Source: Anaerobiospirillum succiniciproducens DSM 6400
GTDB taxonomy: Bacteria; Pseudomonadota; Gammaproteobacteria; Enterobacterales; Succinivibrionaceae
Direction: 5' to 3'
DNA length: 64,000 nt
Assembly (NCBI RefSeq): GCF_000482845.1
Contig: NZ_AXWV01000006.1
Location: forward strand, 1 to 64,000
The stretch's first letter is position 1. Every line of letters begins with the position of its first letter. The notes beneath the pieces were generated by a model. It was not told the DNA's origin, did no database searches, and saw only the letters and a program-made list of their open reading frames with translations. The translations under genes were made by a program, and so were the position numbers. This document shows, in pieces, positions 38,813-63,794 of this stretch.

Positions 38813-39388
38813 TTAGTAATCAGCGCGTAAGACCTCAAAGTAATCTTGTGGGTGATTACATGCAGGGCATACCTTAGGAGCAACAGTGCCCTCATGGATA
38901 AAGCCACAGTTACGGCAGCGCCAGATAACCTTGTCACCACGCTGGAACATGGTGCCAGCCTCTAAGTGGGCTAAGAGATCAAGATACTGCTTCTCGTGCT
39001 GCTTTTCAGCTACTGCAATGTTCTCCATTACTGCAGCAATAACAGGGAAGCCCTCTTCACGAGCAATGGCAGCGTACTTAGGGTACATGTCAGTCCACTC
39101 TTCGTTTTCACCCTCAGCAGCTGACTTTAAGTTAGCAGCGGTGTCACCAATAACACCGGCAGGGAATGTGGCAGTAATTTCAGCATTACCACCCTCAAGG
39201 AACTTAAACAGACGCTTTGCATGTTCTTTTTCCTGATTAGCGGTCTCTTCGAACATGGCTGAAATGAGAACATAGCCTTCTTTCTTAGCTACAGAAGCAA
39301 AGTAGGTGTAGCGGTTACGAGCCATAGACTCGCCAGCAAAAGCAATTAAGAGGTTCTTCTCAGTCTGAGTTCCCTTTAAGCTAGGCAT
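38813..39388 (-). CDS. rbr: rubrerythrin
   Basis: A 191-residue non-heme iron peroxidase that reduces hydrogen peroxide in anaerobes. The N-terminal four-helix domain holds the di-iron ligands (LLIAFAGESMARNRY, ETANQEKEHAKRLF, EEGFPVIAAVMENI, AVAEKQHEKQY). The C-terminal rubredoxin-like domain has CRNCG and CPACN. The length is exactly typical. The ATG at 39386-39388 is preferred because AAAGGAG lies six bases upstream; an in-frame ATG six codons earlier would contain that box. It is monocistronic, with terminator copy 2 downstream. It should work with an NAD(P)H- or ferredoxin-linked reductase elsewhere in the genome. Confidence 0.95.
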   Translation of the reverse strand: MPSLKGTQTEKNLLIAFAGESMARNRYTYFASVAKKEGYVLISAMFEETANQEKEHAKRLFKFLEGGNAEITATFPAGVIGDTAANLKSAAEGENEEWTDMYPKYAAIAREEGFPVIAAVMENIAVAEKQHEKQYLDLLAHLEAGTMFQRGDKVIWRCRNCGFIHEGTVAPKVCPACNHPQDYFEVLRADY

Positions 39389-40354
39389 GTTAATCTCCTT
39401 TGACATGATTAACCGGCTTAAGATAAAGATCTCTAGATGTGTTGGGATACATAGATCGCAACATGTTTTGAGATAAAGATCATCGCAAGCGCGGTTATGG
39501 ATTTTTGATTGAGATAGTGAGTTCTTAACCAAGCCATCAACATAAGATCTTGCCAAGTGCCGTTATCAACAGCTATCAAAGCAAGGCTAGATTGTAGGTA
39601 GATGAGCGCTCCCATCAGCTTGATGAGAGGACTAAGAACTTGCAGCAATCAATCTCAAATATAAGTGCATGCTCTAGATACAGTACTTTGCTGCCCATTA
39701 TGCCTGATAAAGCTTATTTACAGGCCAAAGTTATGGAGCAGCTTCCTTGATTTAGCATACAGATCCTGCCTTGTATAATGACCCTTGAACAGCGCTTTGT
39801 CAAATTACGCGGCATCCTATTGTGAAAAGTCGCTTGAGTAATAATACAAGTGTGATACGAAAGTGCCATCTAACTCGCATTGTCAAACAAAATATTCTCC
39901 TTAGTGCTTCAGCTACTGCAGTTAAGGCTAAAGCTAGGGCCAAAAAGGCCGCCTTTTAGCTACCGCTATTTGAGCTACGATACTGCCTCAAGCACAGCTA
40001 CTAGCCAGCATCCACAAAGTCTCTACAACACCCAAGCCAATCAAGCCTAAAACAAAGATAGCTAAGAAGCTAGGTAATTGAGAGCCACCTGAGTTACCCA
40101 CACTAAACCATGATCAGTGCCAACACTGCTATGCTTAGGCTAGCTAACCAAGCTAGGTCGAGACCAAGTCAAATATGCTCAATAGTGCTTCACGTACAAA
40201 TAGCTTAGCCATGATCTTTTTATGAAGACATGCAGATACTTTGCATCACCAGGACAGAGCCCTTGTAAATAGCTCTAATAGCTCAAGCTGAGCTCAGATT
40301 AGGCAGGGAGTGATGGTATTAATAGGATATTTTGAGTTTTTCGTTAAATCTTTG
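39389..40354. other. gene-free region before tRNA-Pro
   Basis: About 970 bases without a supportable gene. The rubrerythrin promoter should lie at its left end. No repeat beyond short AGCTA-type words was seen. Confidence 0.4.
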
Positions 40355-40383
40355 TTGACAGTAGATCATGACTTACCTATAAT
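40355..40383 (+). promoter_or_regulatory. consensus sigma-70 promoter of tRNA-Pro copy 1
   Basis: TTGACA at 40355-40360 and TATAAT at 40378-40383 with a 17-base spacer, a perfect match to the sigma-70 consensus. A GC-rich discriminator (GGCGGCC) follows, as in stringently controlled stable-RNA promoters. Confidence 0.9.
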
Positions 40384-40392
40384 GGCGGCCAT

Positions 40393-40469
40393 CGGTGATT
40401 AGCGCAGTCCGGTAGCGCAACTGCTTTGGGAGCAGTGGGTCGTAGGTTCGAATCCTACATCACCGACCA
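40393..40469 (+). tRNA. tRNA-Pro (anticodon TGG), copy 1
   Basis: A 77-base tRNA with encoded CCA. The acceptor stem is CGGTGAT/ATCACCG, the D arm is AGCGCAGTCCGGTAGCGC, the anticodon stem is ACTGC/GCAGT with loop TTTGGGA (anticodon TGG), and the T arm is GTAGGTTCGAATCCTAC. It has its own consensus promoter and terminator. The gene is identical to the copy at 46747 and lies inside a 97-bp perfect direct repeat (40389-40485 and 46743-46839). Confidence 0.97.
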
Positions 40470-40479
40470 TCTAAAAGAG

Positions 40480-40501
40480 GCACCGCAAGGTGCTTTTTTT
40501 T
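40480..40501 (+). terminator. terminator of tRNA-Pro copy 1
   Basis: GCACC-GCAA-GGTGC followed by eight T. The tetraloop is of GNRA type. Confidence 0.9.
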
Positions 40502-40552
40502 CGCCTTTTGAAAATGTCCTCCCCGACAGCTGCTCCTGTAGCAGCCTCTAAG

Positions 40553-40588
40553 TTCATTCATTCATTCATTCATTCATTCATTCATTCA
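40553..40588. repeat. (TTCA)9 microsatellite
   Basis: Nine perfect TTCA units. It lies outside any gene, just after the first tRNA-Pro terminator, and has no counterpart after the second tRNA-Pro. Confidence 0.95.
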
Positions 40589-40894
40589 CTCACCTCATAA
40601 ACCTTTAGCCCATATCTTCATTGCCGCAGTAAGTAGTAGAGCTTATTTGCTCGACCAAAAGCTACAGTTCAAAAATCATCTGGCAGACAAATTTAAGACT
40701 AGTCGATGTCGCGCTCATTCCTTCTAAAGCTTAATTAGTGCTAATGCTACTCTCGTGCATTATCCCCACAGCTAATTGAGAGTGTATATCATGGCAACCT
40801 TGCAGCAAGCAAACTCTAAGTAAAGTAAACGCCTTGTGTTGTATTAGCTTCGCCACAAATAGGGCATAGGGCGCGTTCAATCACTTTTTGATGC

Positions 40895-40943
40895 TTGACA
40901 ACTAGCAACATAATATGTTATTATTCAATATCATATTATGTTG
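40895..40943 (+). promoter_or_regulatory. promoter with 12-bp inverted-repeat operator
   Basis: TTGACA (40895-40900) and TATTAT (40919-40924) are separated by 18 bases. CAACATAATATG (40906-40917) and CATATTATGTTG (40932-40943) form a perfect 12-bp inverted repeat whose arms flank the -10 box, a typical repressor-site layout. It lies about 90 bases upstream of the 143-residue ORF. Confidence 0.65.
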
Positions 40944-41029
40944 AACACGCTAAAAGTAATTCATGTACCTCCAGGTACGTGGGTTAGGCTGCCGCATGAA
41001 CTCTATGATCCACGAGAATAGGGTTTGAT

Positions 41030-41461
41030 ATGTCGCAAAAAAGATCTCATGCTTTGTCTAATGTTGTGACAGGCGAAAGTAGGTTTACCTCCAAGCAAAT
41101 TAAGCGTGTGCGATTAAAAGAGAACGTCACTCAACAGATTGAAAATACCTGTACAGGACTTCTTTTAAAAAGGCTACGCGGGTTGCTTGGTGAGCCTAAA
41201 TGGCGAGATGCTCAAAGGAGGTTTGATGAGTTAAGCAACAAGACTGCATTAACTCAAGAAGAAATAGAAGAAAAGCAAGCACTGAGCGTCACGATCTGTG
41301 AGCTCAAAAAGCGTTTTCGCATCACCAGAAATCACATGTATGAAGAAGCAGCTAAGGTTAATCATCATTTTGGATGCGTCCTTAGTAGTATTGAGTCTCA
41401 AGATGTTGCCACTAAAGCTTTTGTTGAGTTTGAAAAAGCTCATTTCTGGCAAGCAAACTAA
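41030..41461 (+). CDS. unrecognised 143-residue protein, possible transposase fragment
   Basis: A basic, helical protein. FDELSNKTALTQEEIEEKQA, then FRITRNHMYEEAAK and a final SQDVATKAFVEFEKAHF, weakly recall the N-terminal helical region of TnpB-like (IS200/IS605) transposases, where a similar QxxATRAFxAxEKxxFGK motif occurs. If so, it is a truncated remnant, because nothing nuclease-like follows. It could also be a small DNA-binding protein acting on the palindrome upstream. A GGGTTTG-type weak ribosome site precedes the ATG. It is the first gene between the two tRNA-Pro copies and is on the same strand as the ATPase triplet. Confidence 0.5.
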   Translation: MSQKRSHALSNVVTGESRFTSKQIKRVRLKENVTQQIENTCTGLLLKRLRGLLGEPKWRDAQRRFDELSNKTALTQEEIEEKQALSVTICELKKRFRITRNHMYEEAAKVNHHFGCVLSSIESQDVATKAFVEFEKAHFWQAN

Positions 41462-41668
41462 CTTCTTCTCAAGCTTGATGGTGTCACCATTGAGCTTTCA
41501 TTAAAGGTGATGACTTAAGTTGTTATCTTAACGTCAAGCTTGAAAAGCACAAGACGTTACATATGAGAAGCGACGGGGTTATACATGCATCTCTTTTCTA
41601 AAAGAGTTGGTACATAACCAAGCTATGCTAGGCCTAAACTAGTGTAGTTATTTCTTCTCACTATCCTG

Positions 41669-41882
41669 TCTTCAATGGTCAGCGACTTGTAGCAGACTCC
41701 GACAATCTTGTCGGATAAGGTCACAGGTAAAAGCCAGTCCCATTTCGGGACAATTCTCTATGGGATTGCACAAGAACCTCGAGAATTTGCTCATTGGTAC
41801 TTGTCAGTGGCTTGCCTGTTGTAGGTAATTAACTGTCTGCAACCCATAGCCAACTCAATACGTTAGGTTAGGTTATAGGTTT
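41669..41882 (+). promoter_or_regulatory. conserved leader of ATPase copy 1
   Basis: A ~210-base non-coding leader repeated almost unchanged before each of the three tandem ATPase genes. It contains TCCGACA-ATCT-TGTCGGA and GTCCC-ATTTC-GGGAC hairpins, and the TTCTCTATGGGATTGCACAA block is invariant. No strong ribosome site precedes the ATG (only ATAGG). Confidence 0.7.
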
Positions 41883-43262
41883 ATGCTGCCAACAAAATTT
41901 AGCTCAGGTTCCAACAAAACATTTGCCCAATATCTTCAAAGCGAAGCCGTCTATGTCGATAAGACCAAGTTTGCGTGTGATCTTGCAGAAGATTATGCAA
42001 GCTTCATGTTTCACCGTCCACATGGCATGGGTAAGAGCCTCTTAGTTTCAAGTCTAAAGCACCTTTTTTCTAAGGGTACGGTTGGTACAGAGGGACTTTA
42101 CTGTCACGATCATTGGCCAGAGGAAAATTGCTATTTTGTCTTCCACCTTTCTTGGGCTGAAATCAACGCCAGTAGCCGAGAGTCTTTTAAGCAAGGTGTT
42201 AACGAACAGTTGCAGCCTTACGCCGAATTATTTGGCGTCTCTCTGGAAGAACGTAGCTACATTGGTTGGAACTTCGAAAACTTAGTTAAAGAATGCGAGA
42301 AGAAGTTAGCAGACGAGAACTTTTTAGCTAAGCATCCTGAGCTTACAGATGGAGATCGGCCTCTTTGTAACGAGATCGTGCTCATGGTTGACGATTACGA
42401 TGCTCCGCTTAACCAAAATTTAGATAATCCAGCTCTTTTCGAAGAACTTAGTGATACTGTCCGCTCTTTCTTTTGTACCGTTAAAAGTATATGCCTGCGT
42501 TTTGTATTGATTACTGGTGTCAGAGGCATTGCTCTTTGTGATATTTTTGGCGGTGCTAATCAGTTTATCGATATCTCACTTGATCGTACGTACGCTACAA
42601 GCTGCGGCTACACTTTAGAAGAGATCGAGCGCTACTTTGAACCGCAGATCAAGCATGCGCAAGAAGTCCTTAACATAGATCATGATGAGTTTTTGTCTAA
42701 GTTAAGCTACTACCTTGATGGCGCTATATTTAGTGATGAGCCTGATGTTAACGTTCATCAAAATAAGGTCTTCAATCCAGTTGTCATAAGTTCTTTCTTG
42801 AACAATCCAGATCAGGGGTTTGAACAGCCTTGGCCTAAGCCACGGCTGCCATATAACCTTTTGGTTAAACTCATGCAGGAAGCAGCTCAAGTAGTATATT
42901 CAGAAGTATTTCACAAAGCATATCCAGATTGGCGCAATAATGATCAAGCACAGTCAAAGCCTCTTGATGATTCGAGCGCATCTATGTGCTCGATTACCTT
43001 GCTCGATCAAACGTATGATCAGAGTTGTAATGGCGATATCAAACTGCTATTGGTCGATTTTTATCTGTTGAAAGATAAGCTTTATATCTATGAACAGAAT
43101 TATTCTTGTTCAGCTGTCACCCTTTTGTTCCAAGAAGGCTATCTAACTATCAAAGCCATCGAAGACGATATGGCTTACCTTGGAATTGCAAATAAGAATG
43201 TGGCAAAGTTGCTTGCTGCATTTGAGTTGAACAACTCAAGCACGGTGGGTCAAGAAGAATAA
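41883..43262 (+). CDS. AAA-ATPase-like protein lacking nuclease domain, tandem copy 1
   Basis: A 459-residue member of the AAA-ATPase-like family (PF09820), of unknown function and greatly expanded in gut bacteria. VYVDKTKFACDL, a Walker A of the form HRPHGMGKS (residues 44-52; most relatives have RPRRFGKS) and a Walker B IVLMVDDYDAPL (about 166-177; relatives have DEYD) are visible, followed by ITGVRGIALCDIFGGANQF. The catalytic Glu is replaced by Asp. The usual C-terminal PD-(D/E)XK region (PF08011) is absent: the protein stops just after FQEGYLTIKAIEDDMAYLGI. Probably cytoplasmic. Copy 2 is nearly identical, and all three copies sit between the tRNA-Pro repeats. Confidence 0.85.
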   Translation: MLPTKFSSGSNKTFAQYLQSEAVYVDKTKFACDLAEDYASFMFHRPHGMGKSLLVSSLKHLFSKGTVGTEGLYCHDHWPEENCYFVFHLSWAEINASSRESFKQGVNEQLQPYAELFGVSLEERSYIGWNFENLVKECEKKLADENFLAKHPELTDGDRPLCNEIVLMVDDYDAPLNQNLDNPALFEELSDTVRSFFCTVKSICLRFVLITGVRGIALCDIFGGANQFIDISLDRTYATSCGYTLEEIERYFEPQIKHAQEVLNIDHDEFLSKLSYYLDGAIFSDEPDVNVHQNKVFNPVVISSFLNNPDQGFEQPWPKPRLPYNLLVKLMQEAAQVVYSEVFHKAYPDWRNNDQAQSKPLDDSSASMCSITLLDQTYDQSCNGDIKLLLVDFYLLKDKLYIYEQNYSCSAVTLLFQEGYLTIKAIEDDMAYLGIANKNVAKLLAAFELNNSSTVGQEE

Positions 43263-43346
43263 TTTGAAGGATAAGGTCTATAAAACTTACTAGCAATGCA
43301 AGGAAGAGCGATTAACAGCTAGAGAGTAGTTCATATCAATATACGC

Positions 43347-43554
43347 TCTTCAATGGTCAGTGATTTGTGGCAGACTCCGACTATCTTATCGGATAAGGTC
43401 ATAGGTAAAAGCCAGTTCCATTTCGGGACAATTCTCTATGGGATTGCACAAGAACCTTGAGTCTTTGCTCATCGGTACTTGTCAGTGGCTTGCCTGTGTA
43501 GGTAATTAACTGTCTGCAGCCCATAGCCGCCTCAATACGTTAGGTTATAGGTTT
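43347..43554 (+). promoter_or_regulatory. conserved leader of ATPase copy 2
   Basis: Second copy of the leader. GTTCC-ATTTC-GGGAC keeps the stem by a wobble pair, while the first hairpin is shortened to TCCGA/TCGGA. Confidence 0.7.
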
Positions 43555-44934
43555 ATGCTGCCAACAAAATTTTGCTCAGGTTCCAACATACCATTTGCCC
43601 AATATCTTCAAAGCGAAGCCGTCTATGTCGATAAGACCAAGTTTGCGTGTGAGTTGGGGAAGAGACGGTCAAGTATCATGCTTCACCGTCCACATGGCAT
43701 GGGTAAGAGCCTCTTAGTATCAAGTCTAAAGCACCTTTTCTCTAAGGGTACGGTTGGTACAGAGGGACTTTACTGTCATGAGCATTGGCCAGAGCAAAAG
43801 TGCTATTTTGTCTTCCATCTCTCTTGGTCTGAGATCAACGCCAGTAGCCTAGAATCTTTTAGGCAAGGTGTTAACGAACAGTTGCAGCCTTACGCCGAAT
43901 TATTTGGCGTCTCTCTGGAAGAACGTAGATACATTGGTTGGAACTTCGAAAACTTAGTTAGACAATGCGAGAAGAAGTTAGCAGACGAGAACTTTTTAGC
44001 TAAGCATCCTGAGCTTACAGATGGAGATCGGCCTCTTTGTAACAAGATCGTGCTCATGGTGGACGATTACGATGCTCCACTTAACCAAAATTTAGATAAT
44101 CCAGTTCTTTTCGAAGAACTTAGGGATACTGTCCGATCTTTCTTTTGTACCGTTAAAAGTATATGCCTGCGTTTTGTATTGATTACTGGTGTCAGAGGCA
44201 TTGCTCTTTGTGATATGTTTGGCGGTGCTAATCAGTTTCACGATATCTCACTTTATCGCAGGTACGCTACAAGCTGTGGTTACACTTTAGAAGAGATCGA
44301 GAGCTACTTTGAACCGCAGATCAAGCATGCGCAAGAAGTCCTTAACATAGATCATGATGAGTTTTTGTCTAAGTTAAGCTACTACCTTGATGGCGCTATA
44401 TTTAGTAATGAGCCTGATGTTAACGTTCATCAAAATAAGGTCTTCAATCCAGCTGTCATCAGTTCTTTCTTGAACAATCCACAGCAGGGGTTTGAACAGC
44501 CTTGGCCTAAGCCACGGCTGCCATATAGCTTTTTGGTTAAACTCATGCAGGAAGCTGCTGAGAAAGTGTATTGGAGGTTGTTTAGCGAAGCATATCCAGA
44601 TTGGCGCAATAATGACCAAGCACAGTCAAAACCTCTTGATGATTTGATGGCATCGATGTGCTCGATTACCTTGCTCGATCAAAAGTATGATCAGAGAATT
44701 AATGGCGATATCAAACTGCTATTGGTCGATATTGATCTGTTGAAAGATAAGCTTTATAGCGTTGAAGAGATTTATTGTGATACAGCTGTCACCCTTTTGT
44801 TCCAAGAAGGCTATCTAACTATCAAAGCCATCAAACACGAAAATGCTTACCTTGGAATTGCAAATAAGAATGTGGCAAAGTTGCTTGCTGCATTTGAGTT
44901 GAACAACTCAAGCACGGTGGGTCAAGAAGAATAA
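43555..44934 (+). CDS. AAA-ATPase-like protein lacking nuclease domain, tandem copy 2
   Basis: A 459-residue close paralogue of copy 1, differing by scattered substitutions clustered near residues 32-42 (GKRRSSIM in place of EDYASFMF) and in the C-terminal third. It has the same HRPHGMGKS Walker A, VDDYD Walker B and early end without nuclease domain. The repeat unit including leader is about 1.67 kb, and even the bases after the stop codon are shared with copy 1. Recent tandem duplication is the simplest origin. Both copies keep open frames of equal length, so they are probably under selection or very young. Confidence 0.85.
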   Translation: MLPTKFCSGSNIPFAQYLQSEAVYVDKTKFACELGKRRSSIMLHRPHGMGKSLLVSSLKHLFSKGTVGTEGLYCHEHWPEQKCYFVFHLSWSEINASSLESFRQGVNEQLQPYAELFGVSLEERRYIGWNFENLVRQCEKKLADENFLAKHPELTDGDRPLCNKIVLMVDDYDAPLNQNLDNPVLFEELRDTVRSFFCTVKSICLRFVLITGVRGIALCDMFGGANQFHDISLYRRYATSCGYTLEEIESYFEPQIKHAQEVLNIDHDEFLSKLSYYLDGAIFSNEPDVNVHQNKVFNPAVISSFLNNPQQGFEQPWPKPRLPYSFLVKLMQEAAEKVYWRLFSEAYPDWRNNDQAQSKPLDDLMASMCSITLLDQKYDQRINGDIKLLLVDIDLLKDKLYSVEEIYCDTAVTLLFQEGYLTIKAIKHENAYLGIANKNVAKLLAAFELNNSSTVGQEE

Positions 44935-45018
44935 TTTTAAGGATACGGTCTATACAACTTACTAGCTATGCAAGGAAGGGCGATTAACAGCTAGTGAGTA
45001 GTTCATTTCAATATACGC

Positions 45019-45232
45019 TCTTCAATGGTCAGTGACTTGTAGCAGACTCCGACTATCTTATCGGATAAGGTCACAGGTAAAAGCCAGTCCCATTTCGGGA
45101 CAATTCTCTATGGGATTGCACAAGAACCTCGAGTCTTTGCTCATCGGTACTTGTCAGTGGCTTGCCTGTGGTAGGTGATCAACTGTCTGCAGCCCATAGC
45201 CCCGTCAATACATTTGGTTAGGTTAAAGGTTT
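45019..45232 (+). promoter_or_regulatory. conserved leader of ATPase copy 3
   Basis: Third copy of the leader, as closely conserved as the others even though the gene it precedes has diverged more in its body. GTCCC-ATTTC-GGGAC is intact. Confidence 0.7.
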
Positions 45233-46627
45233 ATGCTGACAACAAAATTTAGCTCAGGTTCCAACAAAACATTTGCCCAATATCTTCAAAGCAAAGCCGT
45301 CTATGTCGATAAGACCAAGTTTGCGTGTGATCTTGCTAAAGAACATCAAAGCTTCGTGCTTCACCGTCCACATGGCATGGGTAAGAGCCTCTTAGTTTCA
45401 AGTCTAGAGCACCTTTTTTCTAAGGGTACAGTTGGTACAGAGGGACTTTACTGTCACGAGCATTGGCAAGATCCAAACTGCTATTTTGTCTTCCACTTCT
45501 CTTGGACTGATATAAGTGCTTTTAGCCGTGATTCTTTTGAACGTGGTCTTTATGCGCAGTTAATTCCTTACGCGGAGCTCTTTGGCGTTACTCTTGACGA
45601 GGAATATAACATTTGGGTCAATTTTATAAAATTAGTCAAAGAGAGTGAGAAGAAGCTATCCAAAAAGAGCTTCTTAGCAAAGCATCCAGAGCTTACGGAC
45701 GGAGATCGGCCTTTGTGTAATAAGATCGTAGTGCTCGTTGATGACTACGATGCTCCTCTCAACAAAAACTTACAAAAGCCAGAAGTTTTCAAAGAGATTA
45801 AAGAAGCTGTAGGTTTGTTCTTTCGTTCTTTCAAAAATATAAGCATGCGCTTTGTATTACTCACTGGTGTCAGAGGCATTGCTCTTTGTGATATGTTTGG
45901 CGGTGCTAATCAGTTTATCGATATCTCACTTGATGGCAGGTACGCTACAAGCTGTGGCTATACTTTAGAAGAGATCGAGCGCTACTTTGAACCGCAGATC
46001 AAGCATGCTCAAGAAGTCCTTAACATAGATCATGAGACTTTTGTATCCAATCTTCACTATTATATTGATGGCGCTGTACTGAGTGATGAGCAGGGCGAAA
46101 ATAGGCAAGATATCAAGGTCTTCAACCCCGTTATCATTAGTTCTGTCTTGAATAATCCAAAGCAGGGCTTTGAAAAACCTTGTCTTGAGCCATATCTGCC
46201 GTATAACTTTTTGGTCAAAGTCTTAAAGGAATCAGCTAAGGCTGTGTTTTTAGAAACGATGCCCAAAACAAATATACATCTTTTTAGTGCTGATGAGCCT
46301 GTGTACAAAGCTGTTTACAACTCTATTCTTTCTATGACTTCGGTTATGTTGCTTGATAGAGAATATGATATGTTTGGCCAGGGTGGTGATAAACTTTTAG
46401 AAGTTGATGTCAATAGGCTAAAGGATAAGCTCGATAGTGTTGCGGATATTGATGCAGCCAAAGCTATCCTCATTTTGTTTCAAGAAGGCTATTTAACTAT
46501 CAAAGCCATCAAAGATGAAATTGCGTTTCTTGGTTTGGCAAATATTAAAGTTGCACAGCTACTTTCTCCGTATTTCATACAGAACTCGCCCTTAGCAAAG
46601 ATCTTCAAAAAATGGCAAGAAAATTAG
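45233..46627 (+). CDS. AAA-ATPase-like protein lacking nuclease domain, tandem copy 3
   Basis: A 464-residue paralogue with a mosaic pattern. Residues 1-80 (including HRPHGMGKS) and about 205-265 (ALCDMFGGANQFIDISLDGR, then SCGYTLEEIERYFEP) are nearly identical to copies 1 and 2. Residues 90-200 and the last 180 differ strongly. Walker B is VVLVDDYDAPL, again with Asp for Glu. The end is different and longer by a few residues (IFKKWQEN) but still lacks a nuclease domain. Gene conversion among the copies, or recombination with an unseen relative, would explain the patchwork. Confidence 0.85.
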   Translation: MLTTKFSSGSNKTFAQYLQSKAVYVDKTKFACDLAKEHQSFVLHRPHGMGKSLLVSSLEHLFSKGTVGTEGLYCHEHWQDPNCYFVFHFSWTDISAFSRDSFERGLYAQLIPYAELFGVTLDEEYNIWVNFIKLVKESEKKLSKKSFLAKHPELTDGDRPLCNKIVVLVDDYDAPLNKNLQKPEVFKEIKEAVGLFFRSFKNISMRFVLLTGVRGIALCDMFGGANQFIDISLDGRYATSCGYTLEEIERYFEPQIKHAQEVLNIDHETFVSNLHYYIDGAVLSDEQGENRQDIKVFNPVIISSVLNNPKQGFEKPCLEPYLPYNFLVKVLKESAKAVFLETMPKTNIHLFSADEPVYKAVYNSILSMTSVMLLDREYDMFGQGGDKLLEVDVNRLKDKLDSVADIDAAKAILILFQEGYLTIKAIKDEIAFLGLANIKVAQLLSPYFIQNSPLAKIFKKWQEN

Positions 46628-46708
46628 GGCTAAAAGTACTGGCTATGCTAGGAAGAGTTATGCTGTGCAAGCTTTATTGCTTGTGCAGCATAATTTTCAA
46701 ATAAAGTG

Positions 46709-46737
46709 TTGACACGGGATCAGGCATTACATATAAT
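46709..46737 (+). promoter_or_regulatory. consensus sigma-70 promoter of tRNA-Pro copy 2
   Basis: TTGACA (46709-46714), a 17-base spacer and TATAAT (46732-46737). The boxes equal those of copy 1, but the spacer differs, so the promoter is not part of the perfect repeat. Confidence 0.9.
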
Positions 46738-46746
46738 AGCGCCCAT

Positions 46747-46823
46747 CGGTGATTAGCGCAGTCCGGTAGCGCAACTGCTTTGGGAGCAGTGGGTCGTAGG
46801 TTCGAATCCTACATCACCGACCA
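46747..46823 (+). tRNA. tRNA-Pro (anticodon TGG), copy 2
   Basis: A 77-base gene identical to the one at 40393, with the same anticodon loop TTTGGGA and encoded CCA. It lies about 120 bases after the third ATPase gene. The distance between equivalent points of the two tRNA genes is 6354 bp. Confidence 0.97.
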
Positions 46824-46833
46824 TCTAAAAGAG

Positions 46834-46854
46834 GCACCGTAAGGTGCTTTTTTT
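46834..46854 (+). terminator. terminator of tRNA-Pro copy 2
   Basis: GCACC-GTAA-GGTGC followed by seven T. It differs from copy 1 by one loop base, and both loops are GNRA. Confidence 0.9.
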
Positions 46855-47042
46855 ATGCCCGCAATAAAACAAGCCACTTTGAGGCTCCATCCTTTTTGAT
46901 CTAGCAATTCATAGCAGATCCCAACACATCTCGTTCGAATACCCAAAACAGTTAAGATCGCCATATTAAAACTACAGCAATTTTCTGCATGCATCTCAAG
47001 CAATAGGCCATATCTGAGCATAAGATTAATTACAAGCATGGC

Positions 47043-47160
47043 AAGACAAGCGTTGTAAGTACCAATACCTTGAGTCTAGGCTATGCATAGTAAGACAAGC
47101 GTTGTAAGTGCCTATGTCTTAATTTTGAGGCTATGTATGGTAAGACGAGCGTTGTAGGCA
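47043..47160. repeat. 49-50 bp tandem repeat
   Basis: AAGACAAGCGTTGTAAGT-type units start at 47043, 47092 and 47142. The spacing between them diverges, and the ends share GGCTATG. The surrounding interval 46855-47288 holds no gene. Confidence 0.7.
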
Positions 47161-47288
47161 TATTGCCTTGAGTCCCGATCTGGGGTGGATGTGAGATTGG
47201 GATAAGAGGCGCTTTGAGATCGCCTCTAGTGAGTATATATAAGGATATTGAGGCTTGGCTTGAGGTAGGGTGAGTGGCGCTAGAAACA

Positions 47289-47365: not shown

Positions 47366-47893
47366 TTAAGCCTGAGGAGGAATGAGGCCTACCTGCAGAT
47401 CTTCGGCGGTGTAGATGTGCTGACCGTCAACGAATACCTTGCCATCAGCAAAGCCCATGTGGAGCTTGCCACGAGCTACGATACGCTTCATGTCGATAAC
47501 GTAGGTAACCTTCTTGCAGCCTGGTAAAACTTCGCCCTTGAACTTAACTGACTTAACGCCTAATGCACGGCCCTTACCAGGACCACCACGCCAGCCTAAG
47601 AAGAAGCCAACTAACTGCCACATAGCGTCGAGACCTAAGCAGCCAGGCATAACTGGATCACCTGGGAAGTGGCAATCAAAGAACCACAGTTCAGGAGTAA
47701 TATCGAGCTCTGCTGTAATCTGGCCAAGACCATGCTCGCCATCGTCATCACGAATAGAGGTAATGCGATCAAACATCAGCATGTTTGGAGCTGGTAACTG
47801 TGAATTGCCAGGTCCGAATAACTCACCTCTTGAACAGGCAAGAAGGTCTTCTTTATTGAATGAATGAACGCCGCGTTCACACAGTGATGCCAT
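47366..47893 (-). CDS. fabA: 3-hydroxydecanoyl-ACP dehydratase/isomerase
   Basis: A 175-residue cytosolic FabA, which dehydrates 3-hydroxyacyl-ACP and isomerises the C10 intermediate, opening anaerobic unsaturated fatty acid synthesis. [20 protein letters not shown] contains the catalytic His (HFPGDP) and the later Asp (GLDAMWQL). The length matches E. coli (172). The ATG at 47891-47893 has AGGAG six bases upstream; the frame continues seven codons further without support. It is monocistronic. FabA usually implies FabB elsewhere and supports placement in the gammaproteobacteria. Confidence 0.95.
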
Positions 47894-48680
47894 TTTTAAC
47901 TCCTGTAGATACAAGCTCTGCTTAAGGTGAACGTTGAGTCCCTGTCTAAAACCTTAGCATAGGGGGCAAACAAGATCAGAGCCGTATTGGTAAATAGGTA
48001 TTCTGCTGCAAGACTAAAGCATAGATGGCGTATATAAGCCAAATATCTAAAACTTTTGCTAGTCTCGTGCAAAAATCCGTGCATAGTATAGCACAAGGAA
48101 GCAAATTGACATGATAAGGGAACAAATCAGCACTGCAAAGCTGATGTAATGCACACTTCTATGCGATCTTGTCTACTCAAAAGTCTACATTTGCTGATGG
48201 TGTCAGACACATTACTTGCCTTTTTCGCCTGAGAGTATGTCTTAATAGCTAGTTATGATGACGTGAAAAGGGCTTATCTTTAGCTTACGTGCAAGACTAG
48301 GCAATAAGCTGGGCGCGAACCATATTTCTTGGTGATTCAGAACTTTTGGCGATGAGGTAGCTTAATTCTAGAGCTATTGATTATCTTAGGCGTGCTATAA
48401 AGCTTTGTTTGGATCATCGCTGGTGTTGAGGGCGATAGGTTCAAGATGTTCTTTGCTAAGTCATAGCATTTAAAACTGGGGCATAACGTTGCTGTAAGTT
48501 AGAAGACGGACTGTGGCGATGCAATGCGGCAGATTCTAGATTAGCTTGGGGCTGCGTCGTAATACGGATAGGGGCTTAAGTATTTAACTTAGGCAGGTGC
48601 TACGGCTCTGGGCTGGTATTTTTGGTGGCGCTATGATGTAGTGGCAGGTAAATGATTGTGGCGGTGTGATTTTTGGTCGG
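47894..48680. other. intergenic
   Basis: About 790 bases between fabA and the crp terminator with no gene or repeat that I can support; the fabA promoter lies in its left part. Confidence 0.4.
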
Positions 48681-58346: not shown

Positions 58347-59366
58347 TTATTCTGTCAGATCATCCGAAGTTTCCGCAACCAGCCGGTCAAAGTCGCTCTG
58401 ATAGGTCCGATCCTGCAATACCAGGAACTTTTCAAACTCTTTCTCAGCAAAGGCTTTGGCGATGGCAGCGATCACCTTGCCTTTATCATGCAGAATATCT
58501 TCCTCGTTGAACTGTAAAAATGCGTCAAGCCGCTTGACCCAATCGGCCATATACATGACATTTCCTCGGCGGGCCTGCCGTTTTGCATAGTCAAGGTACA
58601 TGGTGACGATCTCGTTCAGGTTTCGCATTTTAGTTTCGTTCAGATAGTTTTGGGCGACGGCGACATCCGATTTGCAAATACGGCCTTTGGGTGCGTTTTT
58701 CCATGTGGTAAGCCCCATGTTGGGCTTGGTACTGTCGGCACGGCCATATACGATCTCGGCGTCGGTATGATGGGGGAGCGCATAGTGGAGCTTGTTCTTC
58801 ACATTGGCGAAAAACTCCTTTGTGATGGGGCTTTCCACATCGTAGTCGGAGCTGCACTGGGAATAGATGTCCGTGATTTTCTGGTAGAACCTTCTCTCGC
58901 TCTCCCGGATACGTTCCAGTTGTTCCTCGAAATAATCCTTGCCGAAAAAGTTCTCTGGCTCCCGCAGCCGTGCGTCATCCATCACATAACCTTTGATGAT
59001 GAACTCTTTCAACACCCGGTTCGCCCAAATGCAGAACATGGTCGCCTTTTTGGAGGTCACACGATACCCCACAGCGATAATGGCGTCCAGATTGTAATAG
59101 TTGGTCTGATACCGTTTCCCGTCCGCCGCAGTTGTTTCCATTTTGGAAACAACTGAATCCTCGTTCAGTTCGCCGGATTCAAAAATCTTTTTCAGATGCT
59201 TGGAAATGGCTGCTTTCTGTACATCGAACAGCTCTGCCATTTTTGCCTGTGTCAGCCAGAGGTTTTCCTGAAAGAGCAGGATTTCCACCCGCACTTCTCC
59301 GTTTTCGGTCTTGTAAAAGAGGATTTCTCTGGTTTCATACGAGGTCAGCCCTTGTTCCTTGCTCAT
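58347..59366 (-). CDS. rhuM: RhuM-family protein
   Basis: A 339-residue protein of the RhuM (virulence protein) family, often carried by pathogenicity islands, conjugative elements and defence islands; its molecular role is not established. The N-terminus EILFYKTENGEVRVEILLFQ and NLWLTQAKMAELFDVQKAAI contain a helix-turn-helix-like region, followed by SVVSKMETTAADGKRYQTNY and YNLDAIIAVGYRVTS, the family signature. A Fic/DOC-unlike helical C-terminus closes it. GGAGGTAACC precedes the ATG. The length is normal, so it is probably intact. Base composition is foreign to the surroundings. Confidence 0.9.
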   Translation of the reverse strand: MSKEQGLTSYETREILFYKTENGEVRVEILLFQENLWLTQAKMAELFDVQKAAISKHLKKIFESGELNEDSVVSKMETTAADGKRYQTNYYNLDAIIAVGYRVTSKKATMFCIWANRVLKEFIIKGYVMDDARLREPENFFGKDYFEEQLERIRESERRFYQKITDIYSQCSSDYDVESPITKEFFANVKNKLHYALPHHTDAEIVYGRADSTKPNMGLTTWKNAPKGRICKSDVAVAQNYLNETKMRNLNEIVTMYLDYAKRQARRGNVMYMADWVKRLDAFLQFNEEDILHDKGKVIAAIAKAFAEKEFEKFLVLQDRTYQSDFDRLVAETSDDLTE

Positions 59367-59714: not shown

Positions 59715-61619
59715 ATGATTATGGTGCCAAGAAAAATTGCCTCAGGTTTTTATAAATCATTTAGTCAGCTTATTCACGACAAATTTGTCTATGTTGATAA
59801 GACTAAAGCTGCCTGTTTTATGGCAGAGCGAGAAGAGTGTTACTTATTAACTAGACCTCGTCGCATGGGCAAGAGCACCATGGTCTCAACCTTAGAGTAT
59901 TTGTTCTCTAAAGGCATGGTAGGCACAGAAGGTCTCTACTGCTACGATCATTGGCCAGAGACTCAGCGCTATTTCGTCTTCAAGTTTGTATTCAGTTTAT
60001 TTGATATCACCTCAATAGACTCGCTAAGAGATAAGTTCCGTAGTGAATTGAAGAACTATGCAGGTTATTTTGGCGTTGAGATCTCTCAAGATGATCCTAT
60101 ACACGTATGTTTTGAGCAGTTAGTTGCTCAGAGTGTGAAGAAGCTATCGGATAAGAGCTTTCTAGCAGACCACCCTGAGCTTCAGGATGGGGATCAGCCA
60201 TTATCCACGGATAAGGTAGTCTTACTAATTGATGAGTATGACACTCCGCTTACGCATTATTTAGAAACGAATAGAGATCCTCATGAGCTTCAAGAGTTTT
60301 ACTGTCATCTATTTGCAACCATCAAGAAGATAGGCTTCCGCTTCGTATTTGTTACGGGTATAAGCTCATACAAGCAGAGCTCCATCTTCGGTGGCTCAAA
60401 TCAGTTTATAGACATTTCACTCGATCCAAGATACGCCACCAGCTGCGGCTATACTCAAGAGGAACTTGAGCATTACTTTGCACCAGAGCTAGAGAATGCT
60501 CAACAAGAGTTTAACCTTAGTCGTGACGAGCTAATGAATAAGCTTAGTTATTACTATGGTGGGTACTTTTTCAATAGTCTCCATGACAGTCATAATGATA
60601 CTCATAAACTCTTTAACCCAGTTAGTGTTTCCTCGTTCTTGAGCGATCCATCAGATGGCTTTGATAATTACTGGGGTAAGACAGGTGGTGGTTCTGATTT
60701 CTTGTTAAAGCTGATATTTCTCAGCTCACAAGAGATTAATAGGCAGCTCTTGAGGAAGCTCTACAAGAGTGTATTTGACTCACTAGATCTCAGTGATCCT
60801 AAGGTGAATGAGTTCATCGAAGCTTGGTCGCCATTCTTCCTATTTGAGCTACTTTCACATGATCAACCTCAGGACAAAGATCGCTTGTTTTGCAAGGATG
60901 CAGATTCACTAAAGGTCGACTTATCTGAAGATGAGCTTTTCACTATTGATAATGCTATTGCTATCCTGTACCAGGCTGGATACTTAGCCATTAAGCATGT
61001 TGATGACGACAAAGTATACCTAGGTCTTGCCAATTACGACGCTACAAAGTCTCTGGTATCAGTTATTAATTCTGAAGGAAGCTTTATCAAAAGCACTTAC
61101 TATAATCTTGCAAAAATGCTGGCGTCTCTTGAGGAGCTCCGCTTAGATATTTTTGAGCGGCTGCACAAAGGCAAATCCAATATAGGCAAGTATTTTCAGG
61201 GGATACTAAATACTGTCCCTGATAGCCTACTCACTAGAGATGGTGGTGAAAAGCAGCTTGCCTTCTTTAGCTACTGGGTCTTGAAATTCCAAGCCATTGT
61301 AAGGAAATGCGATGTTAAGCTGGACGCAGATCAGGCCAAGGTAATTATCTATCAGCCTCATCAGGGCGAATTGGCAGATGTGGCTGAGGATATTGTCATT
61401 GAGTTTAAGCTTGCCAATAGTCAAGAAGAACTCAAACAGCTTAAGGCATCATCAGTACAGCCCCAGGAAAATGACTCAGATAAAAGCCCTGCAGTAACAG
61501 ATCCATATCGCTATTGCGTGCTAATAAGCCTAGATCAGAGGCTAGTAGCTGCCATCAGTGCAATGAATGCCGATGGTAGCTCAAAAACAGTGTATGTTTC
61601 AGATAAGCTGAATGAATAA
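59715..61619 (+). CDS. AAA-ATPase-like/PD-(D/E)XK protein, degenerate nuclease site
   Basis: A 634-residue protein. The N-terminal ATPase (PF09820 type) has VYVDKTKAACFM, Walker A RPRRMGKS (about residues 47-54), Walker B VVLLIDEYDTPL and VTGISSYKQSSIFGGSNQF, the standard forms. The C-terminal region corresponds to the PD-(D/E)XK nuclease (PF08011): IVIEFKLANS supplies E-x-K, but the upstream strand reads QAKVIIY where relatives have GRADLV, so the metal-binding Asp seems lost. It ends NADGSSKTVYVSDKLNE, the same ending as the next gene. ATG at 59715 or, with better GAGG spacing, 59721. Function unknown; some relatives are suspected defence or mobile-element proteins. Confidence 0.85.
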   Translation: MIMVPRKIASGFYKSFSQLIHDKFVYVDKTKAACFMAEREECYLLTRPRRMGKSTMVSTLEYLFSKGMVGTEGLYCYDHWPETQRYFVFKFVFSLFDITSIDSLRDKFRSELKNYAGYFGVEISQDDPIHVCFEQLVAQSVKKLSDKSFLADHPELQDGDQPLSTDKVVLLIDEYDTPLTHYLETNRDPHELQEFYCHLFATIKKIGFRFVFVTGISSYKQSSIFGGSNQFIDISLDPRYATSCGYTQEELEHYFAPELENAQQEFNLSRDELMNKLSYYYGGYFFNSLHDSHNDTHKLFNPVSVSSFLSDPSDGFDNYWGKTGGGSDFLLKLIFLSSQEINRQLLRKLYKSVFDSLDLSDPKVNEFIEAWSPFFLFELLSHDQPQDKDRLFCKDADSLKVDLSEDELFTIDNAIAILYQAGYLAIKHVDDDKVYLGLANYDATKSLVSVINSEGSFIKSTYYNLAKMLASLEELRLDIFERLHKGKSNIGKYFQGILNTVPDSLLTRDGGEKQLAFFSYWVLKFQAIVRKCDVKLDADQAKVIIYQPHQGELADVAEDIVIEFKLANSQEELKQLKASSVQPQENDSDKSPAVTDPYRYCVLISLDQRLVAAISAMNADGSSKTVYVSDKLNE

Positions 61620-61859
61620 GGCACAGGCCAAAGAGAGTTGTTATAGGCAGGGAATTGGTGCATCGAACTGTCGTTAGACGCATTCAAGATGAGCAGAATG
61701 TTTCTCTTAGTAAAGATGTACTTCTGTTAATTCTATTGTTGATTTAAGTTACTTCATCTTTGCCATGAAATAAGGCGCTTTGCTGAACCTATGCCTTAGC
61801 TAAAGCGTTATAATATCTAAAGATGCTATGTTTCATTCAAGTCAAAAACGGGGCTGCCA

Positions 61860-63794
61860 ATGGAGACAAGATTCATAACCGATGGTGATTTAATTCCTTT
61901 TGATGATCTTATAGCAGGTGACACGGTATATGTTGATAAGACTAAATTCGCTTGTGAACTTGCAAAAAGACGCGGATCTTTCCTGCTCACAAGACCTCGT
62001 CGCATGGGCAAGAGCACCATGGTCTCAACCTTAGAGTATTTGTTCTCTAAAGGTACTGTAGGCACTGAAGGTCTCTACTGCTACGATCATTGGCCATTGA
62101 CTGAGCGCTATTTTGTCTTTCGCTTTGACTGGAGTAAGTTTGTAGTATCTTCAGAAGAGCAGTTTAAGCAAAAGTTTGGACAAGATCTCGATTTGTATGC
62201 TTCTTACTTTGGCGTTGAAATCCCAACAAATATACGTGTAGCTATGCGTTTCGAGATTTTAATCAAATTATGCCTAGAGAAGCTGACAGATGAGGCTTTT
62301 TTATCCCAACATCCAGAGCTAAAAGATGGAGATCTCCCATTATCTTCTAAAAAGGTCGTGCTATTGATCGATGAGTATGATGCTCCTTTGACTAGAAGCC
62401 TAAATAATCCTGAACTTTTTGACAAAATAAGATTAGAATTCATAGAGTTTTTCTCATCAATCAAGGCTCTTAGGTACTTTAGGTGGGTTTTTGTTACAGG
62501 AGTCAGTTCATACGCGCAGACTTCCATCTTCTCTGGTGCTAATCAGTTTAAGAATATCTCTCTTAATGATGAATACGCTACTTGTTGCGGCTACACTCAA
62601 GATGAGATAGAGCACTATTTTGCTCCAGAGCTTAAAAACGCACAAGAAGTTCTAGATTTGGACTATGATGAGTTGATGGCAAAACTTAGCTATTTCTATG
62701 ATGGCTATCTTTTTACTCAGCTTGGGAATCGAGATAACAGAAGCAAAAATGTATTCAGTCCAGTTAGTGTTTCTTCTTTTCTGACTCGCCCAATAAATGG
62801 GTTTATTAATTACTGGAGCGGCACAGGCGCTCAGAATTCCTTCATTTTTAAGCTCTTCGGAACATGTTCTCAAGTTGTTAAATCAAAAGTGTTGAAGAGG
62901 TTGTATCCAGACTTCTTTGAATCTATTGAACAAAATAGTCCTGAGTTGTTGAAAGTTATTGAATCAATGAATCTTGTATTCATGCTGGATCTTAATGATA
63001 GACAACTCAATGATTACGATGCTCATCTGATTAAAGTTGATATTGATTCATTAATCTTTAAGATTGACAATTTAGACGATATAAATGATGAATGTGCAAT
63101 TGCCGTCTTGTTCCAATCAGGCTACTTAAGCATTAAACGAGTTGAAGGAGAGTTTGCATACATAGGTCTTGCAAATTATGAGGTTGCCAAAACATTCACT
63201 AAATTTGTAATGTCGCCTTCATTCTATAAAGAACCGGCACAACACAAGCTTTATGAAAAACTCCAAACCTTCTTTGACAACAGAGATAGTCTTTTTGCTA
63301 GCTTCCATGAGGGTGGGCATAGTTTAGCAAAGCAGATTAACTTGATATTAAATCTTGCACCTGAGGACTTATTTGCACCTAATAATCGCGAAAATGTGGT
63401 AACTGGCTTTTGCTACATCGCCATTAAATTCTCTGGTATTGGTGTTGCTCGCGAGGTTCACTACGTCTTAGGGCGTGCTGATTTAGTTGTCTATAAGCCA
63501 GACCTCAATATCTTGGTTGAAGATACTGTATTTGAGTTTAAGCTTGCTCGCCACGGTGAAAACATACTCACAAAGCTTGCCGAAGGCACCAAACAGGTCA
63601 TCGACAAGAGATATGGTCTAAGCTTAGAAAACCCTAATCCATATCGCTACTGCGTCGTATTTAGTAATGATCTGAGACAGGTGGGAGCAATTGAAGCAAT
63701 TAATGCCGATGGCAGCTCAAAAACTGTGTATGTTTCAGATAAGCTAAATGAAGATGGCACTGTTAACAGCCAGCTTTTGCCAAGCAAAGAGTAG
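61860..63794 (+). CDS. AAA-ATPase-like/PD-(D/E)XK protein, intact motifs
   Basis: A 644-residue paralogue with all motifs present: VYVDKTKFACEL, Walker A RPRRMGKS (45-52), Walker B VVLLIDEYDAPL (DEYD 171-174), VTGVSSYAQTSIFSGANQF, and a nuclease-like end with GRADLVVY (Asp 541) and TVFEFKLARHG (E559, K561). It is the best candidate for an active ATPase-nuclease in this window. It follows the 59715 gene by 240 bases on the same strand. Its first 85 residues resemble copies 1-3 at 42-46 kb closely (KGTVGTEGLYCYDHWP), showing common origin of the five genes. Confidence 0.88.
   Translation: METRFITDGDLIPFDDLIAGDTVYVDKTKFACELAKRRGSFLLTRPRRMGKSTMVSTLEYLFSKGTVGTEGLYCYDHWPLTERYFVFRFDWSKFVVSSEEQFKQKFGQDLDLYASYFGVEIPTNIRVAMRFEILIKLCLEKLTDEAFLSQHPELKDGDLPLSSKKVVLLIDEYDAPLTRSLNNPELFDKIRLEFIEFFSSIKALRYFRWVFVTGVSSYAQTSIFSGANQFKNISLNDEYATCCGYTQDEIEHYFAPELKNAQEVLDLDYDELMAKLSYFYDGYLFTQLGNRDNRSKNVFSPVSVSSFLTRPINGFINYWSGTGAQNSFIFKLFGTCSQVVKSKVLKRLYPDFFESIEQNSPELLKVIESMNLVFMLDLNDRQLNDYDAHLIKVDIDSLIFKIDNLDDINDECAIAVLFQSGYLSIKRVEGEFAYIGLANYEVAKTFTKFVMSPSFYKEPAQHKLYEKLQTFFDNRDSLFASFHEGGHSLAKQINLILNLAPEDLFAPNNRENVVTGFCYIAIKFSGIGVAREVHYVLGRADLVVYKPDLNILVEDTVFEFKLARHGENILTKLAEGTKQVIDKRYGLSLENPNPYRYCVVFSNDLRQVGAIEAINADGSSKTVYVSDKLNEDGTVNSQLLPSKE

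Follow-up and report, generated by a model that had tools for sequence, protein, structure and literature searches.

The three tandem ATPase genes enclosed by two identical tRNA-Pro(UGG) genes of Anaerobiospirillum succiniciproducens DSM 6400 very probably represent a duplicated array of DUF1703-type genes that has grown in a tRNA spacer, and the locus is very probably an ordinary one. The stretch of DNA analysed (the window) was 64,000 nucleotides long, and its features at this site are given in Table 1. Judging from gene order in the genus, the common state at the site is several tRNA-Pro genes, and the insert is the exception.

Table 1. Features of the tRNA-Pro pair, the enclosed genes and the neighbouring genes (positions are those of the window)
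Feature	Position	Strand	Basis
Rubrerythrin, conserved left neighbour	38813..39556	-	Same place in G003, G004, G007
tRNA-Pro copy 1 promoter, TTGACA-17-TATAAT	40355..40383	+	12/12 consensus
97-bp perfect direct repeat, first copy	40389..40485	+	Self-comparison
tRNA-Pro(UGG) copy 1	40393..40469	+	ARAGORN; Rfam RF00005
tRNA-Pro copy 1 terminator hairpin and T-run	40480..40503	+	Sequence; hairpin listed on -
Sigma70-like promoter (11/12) over inverted repeat AACATAATAT..ATATTATGTT, upstream of ORF143	40895..40943	+	Promoter scan; self inverted match 40906-40943
Orphan ORF (ORF143), 143 aa	41030..41461	+	ORF list; no relatives
Strongly folding leader of ATPase unit 1	41660..41882	+	Fold scan
AAA-ATPase_like A1, 459 aa, no nuclease domain	41883..43262	+	PF09820 E 4e-34; alignment
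Leader of ATPase unit 2	43337..43554	+	Sequence match; fold scan
AAA-ATPase_like A2, 459 aa, 87% identical to A1	43555..44934	+	PF09820; alignment
Leader of ATPase unit 3	45010..45232	+	Sequence match; fold scan
AAA-ATPase_like A3, 464 aa, 63-65% identical to A1/A2	45233..46627	+	PF09820; alignment
tRNA-Pro copy 2 promoter	46709..46737	+	12/12 consensus
97-bp repeat, second copy	46743..46839	+	Self-comparison
tRNA-Pro(UGG) copy 2	46747..46823	+	ARAGORN; Rfam RF00005
tRNA-Pro copy 2 terminator hairpin and T-run	46834..46855	+	Sequence; hairpin listed on -
fabA, conserved right neighbour	47366..47914	-	Pfam; order in relatives

The tRNA-Pro pair and the same site in the genus

The perfect direct repeat of 97 bp was found to recur at an offset of 6354 bp, and the identity outside it fell to background within about 40-50 bp. 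The tRNA-Pro(UGG) gene, named tRNA-Pro(TGG) by ARAGORN, occupied 77 of the 97 bp in each copy, and the pair was found to enclose ORF143 followed by the three tandem PF09820 genes. This arrangement had been described in an earlier note on the sequence, and it was reproduced exactly by ARAGORN, self-comparison and Pfam. The repeat is far beyond what chance would give. Each tRNA-Pro gene was preceded by a promoter of full consensus, with 17-nt spacers that differ between the copies, followed by the presence of a GCACCG..GGTGC hairpin and T-run as the terminator; the hairpin scan lists the - strand only, and the + strand reading was taken from the sequence itself. The claim that each tRNA keeps its own promoter and terminator behind unlike promoter spacers was thereby borne out. 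An ATTC microsatellite of about nine units (40554-40590) was found just downstream of tRNA-Pro copy 1, and three imperfect 36-nt direct repeats with a spacing of 49-50 nt (47036-47170) were found between tRNA-Pro copy 2 and fabA.

The genus comparison comprised ten genomes, namely that of the window (G000; 3.8 Mb, 155 contigs) and nine others. The same-genus order was found to be rubrerythrin, then 2-5 tRNA-Pro genes free of any intervening ATPase, then fabA and crp, and in G003, G004 and G007 the whole order was found on one contig as in the window. The listed TTG start of rubrerythrin in the window is probably too far upstream. G003 and G004 were found to contain three tandem tRNA-Pro genes at a spacing of about 26-29 nt, with one promoter before and one terminator after them. 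G007 was found to contain two complete promoter-tRNA-terminator units with a 427-bp spacer without ATPase, and is thus an empty site in which both tRNAs are retained. Gene order was only partly resolved by the contigs in G001, G002, G006 and G008; G002 contained two tRNA-Pro units with a 170-bp spacer adjoining fabA (the contig stops at the outer tRNA), G008 contained five tandem tRNA-Pro genes adjoining fabA, and G001 and G006 also contained several copies, with contigs broken at the array. The site of G005 was divided between two contigs, and in G009 about 2 kb from rubrerythrin to fabA contained no tRNA-Pro gene. The G009 interval (L124:4488-6446) seems to contain another ORF, so that there is more than one kind of variation at the site. 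The ORF143-ATPase block was found in one of the ten genomes (G000 only), and no donor was found.

The 77-nt tRNA-Pro(UGG) was found to be uniform across all four copies of G000 (three loci) and all five copies of G003. Between species it differed by 0-6 nt, and no differences were found among the copies compared from any one genome. The identity of the bracketing tRNAs is expected, because tRNA-Pro copies appear to be homogenised genome-wide. Only about 20 more identical bp, in the tRNA flanks, were private to the window pair, and since these are identical too, the whole unit would have been duplicated or converted in the G000 lineage. The repeat appears to reflect homogenisation of a multicopy tRNA rather than to originate from attachment sites. 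The site resembles multicopy tRNA clusters with homogenisation in its 2-5 tRNA-Pro genes at one place, uniform per genome and mostly different between species, and it is unlike them in the 6 kb of protein genes that separates the two units in the window.

The ATPase genes, their leaders and ORF143

A1-A3 were found to stand as tandem units of 1672-1678 nt, and all three matched PF09820 with 105-119 bits against a curated cut-off of 26.1 (E 4e-30 to 5e-34). They share the N-terminal ATPase with the DUF1703-type proteins (AAA-ATPase_like PF09820 and PDDEXK_9 PF08011; Knizewski et al. 2007, PMC1913061). No match to PF08011 was found in A1-A3, which end about 40-50 residues before the start of this domain in the paralogs. 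The RPRR Walker A and DEYD Walker B are typical of the DUF1703 type, with a catalytic role proposed for the arginines (PMC1913061). Neither motif was present in A1-A3: in the alignment they contained Walker A RPHGMGKS and Walker B DDYD instead of RPRR(M/F)GKS and DEYD, whereas the full-length paralogs contained RPRRMGKS and DEYD. Given the changed motifs, ATP hydrolysis by A1-A3 may be altered, and the three proteins appear to form a branch that lacks the nuclease and differs in its Walker motifs. No PADLOC model matched A1-A3; some phage-defence proteins contain PF09820 according to a review (PMC10952713). The structure prediction at the locus was of low confidence (pLDDT 56). No relatives of the triplet were found in other species by the strict scan, and plasmid homologues of the ATPases, among the matches listed, were less than 30% identical.

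About 16 genes in the genome of the window matched PF09820. In a tree made by a quick method, 12 of the 13 included ATPases of this genome formed one clade that excludes the same-genus homologues (SH-aLRT 100), the thirteenth (contig C36) being distant and on a long branch. The same-genus homologues were only about 30% identical to these ATPases, and no PF09820-type ATPase was matched in G003 and G004 at the E-value used. Tandem copies were also found on contigs C42, C2 and C3, and the window itself contained a tandem full-length pair (59715-63794) of 634 and 644 aa, of which the 644-aa protein matched PDDEXK_9. An ORF on the opposite strand just upstream of this pair (58347-59366) is presumably RhuM-like. 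The full-length paralogs were about 640 aa long, and PDDEXK_9 was found near the C terminus (after residue 500) in three of the four tested, with weak matches of which one was over the curated cut-off. The ATPase gene of contig C59 (L138) was found among several similar repeated ORFs, which we take to resemble pieces of a transposase integrase core.

A tRNA-Ser(GGA) gene lies at a distance of about 390 bp from the end of the ATPase run of C42 (L136:3389-7920). At the other ATPase loci of G000 examined and at 28 sampled loci of relatives, no tRNA was found in the flanking sequence inspected, which extended about 1.5 kb or more to either side unless cut short by a contig end. A tRNA-targeting habit of PF09820 genes was rejected on these counts (one other locus in G000, 0/28 in relatives). 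The ATPases appear to be part of a lineage-specific expansion whose members are often in tandem and in most cases have no tRNA next to them. A comparable expansion in Cardinium cCpun consists of 25 full copies and six ATPase-only genes, with recombination between paralogs (PMC6387759). The ATPases of G000 are likewise multi-copy and lineage-specific with recombination between paralogs; the ATPase-only genes in Cardinium lie at a contig edge, whereas the nuclease-less A1-A3 lie in mid-contig.

The three ATPase leaders were found to be about 90% identical and to fold strongly, with folding z of -3.3 and -2.0. No leader relatives were found in the genus, the only copies being the three in the window. 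Rfam gave no match to a known RNA, and a wider RNA family was also rejected, as the covariance model R1 matched only its three source copies in the ten genomes; the three copies are too similar for useful covariation. Unit 3 was found to be a mosaic relative to unit 1: the identity was 85-98% in two parts, one made up of most of the leader plus the first 80 codons and the other lying at approximately codons 200-260, and it was 50-80% over most of the remainder. Stretches of very low synonymous difference were also found between A1 and A3. The mosaic identity suggests exchange between the copies. Such exchange would explain the similarity of the leaders, because the similarity is just as high in the first 80 codons, and special constraint on the leader was rejected for the same reason. 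The dN/dS values (Nei-Gojobori) were 0.36 for A1-A3, 0.36 for A2-A3 and 0.66 for A1-A2. Selection on A1-A3 is, by these values, mostly purifying, and the genes are for this reason probably expressed and functional as proteins. Diversifying selection was rejected, the value for A1-A2 showing no excess over the whole gene.

No relatives of ORF143 were found in 39 related genomes, plasmids, phages and viral contigs. It gave no convincing match in Pfam, NCBIfam and PHROGs as an integrase, transposase or phage gene, and only a weak partial Avs5 match among the PADLOC models (E 0.0026). Its near-perfect promoter was found to overlap a 10-bp inverted repeat that looks like an operator.

Explanations of the locus

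Gene amplification with homogenised tRNA copies, which the earlier note had offered as its alternative, fits all the data. The rubrerythrin-fabA interval is, as the comparison shows, a multicopy tRNA-Pro(UGG) site of the genus, represented here by two separate units. A nuclease-less member of the expanded AAA-ATPase_like family of G000 would have come into the spacer together with ORF143, both being present here only, followed by amplification of the ATPase gene to three tandem copies that, from their mosaic identity, would have exchanged sequence. The tRNA pair would have been kept identical through genome-wide upkeep of the tRNA-Pro copies and not as attachment sites. The placement is most simply explained by chance insertion into the tRNA spacer, an insertion-tolerant intergenic region; it is possible that the ORF143-ATPase block arrived as one mobile block. 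Given the absent nuclease and the changed Walker A and B motifs, A1-A3 may perhaps bind nucleotides and regulate the full-length paralogs or act together with them.

Like tRNA-integrated genomic islands, the window contains a block between direct repeats of a tRNA gene that is missing from relatives (all nine other genomes of the genus), the perfect repeat contains the tRNA 3′ end, and the G+C of the insert is slightly lower than that of the window (41.1% vs 43.0%). A small mobile island that integrated site-specifically at tRNA-Pro, regenerated the full tRNA at its far end and has its integrase lost or acting in trans is nevertheless quite improbable. The idea that the tRNA is the duplicated attachment site of an island failed on the relatives without the ATPases, which already have 2-5 tRNA-Pro genes there; a single attachment copy at an empty site was found in none, two or more tRNA-Pro genes being present, or none in G009, and the state with one tRNA and no insert, for which a search of relatives had been proposed, was absent from all resolved sites. 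Attachment-site repeats usually correspond to part of the tRNA 3′ end, whereas the repeat here spans the whole tRNA and 4 bp upstream, and whole tRNA units, each with its own promoter, stand on both sides. That no integrase is visible was upheld: none was found in the insert or next to it, and no such Pfam match was found among the ORFs of 40389-46839. PF00589 (Phage_integrase) gave two matches in G000, both away from the contig of the window (C26 and C11), and XerC and XerD would account for this count; PF00239 (resolvase) matched short fragments only. The cargo has paralogs throughout G000. An island at the tRNA was rejected on the tRNA-Pro copies of the relatives and the missing integrase.

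It is also improbable that RecA-dependent recombination between the repeats makes the interval an excisable or amplifiable module. A perfect direct repeat of 97 bp is in principle sufficient for homologous recombination, and the copy number of 2-5 at the site in relatives implies that tRNA copies are gained or lost here. The view that the Walker-altered nuclease-less branch, the folding 220-nt leader and the orphan gene with its operator-like promoter form a self-regulated module, recombining and lost or amplified via the tRNA repeats, is very improbable. An assembly artefact, with the ATPase block joined from elsewhere via the tRNA repeats, is most improbable of all; the contigs of G001, G002 and G006 do break at the array and the 77-nt tRNA is present four times in G000, but both outer flanks (rubrerythrin and fabA) are as expected, and such an artefact would require two misjoins independent of each other.

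Meaning of the array

The duplicated array in a tRNA spacer carries a caution: a gene block between identical tRNAs resembles an island, yet the relatives have several tRNA copies without the block. Paired tRNA genes in relatives without the ATPases imply that a mobile island was not the source of the tRNA copies. The ATPase family is already known but poorly understood, and the arrangement looks ordinary. To the little understood PF09820/PDDEXK_9 family, which expands independently in many bacteria, the array adds what appears to be a tandem branch lacking the nuclease.
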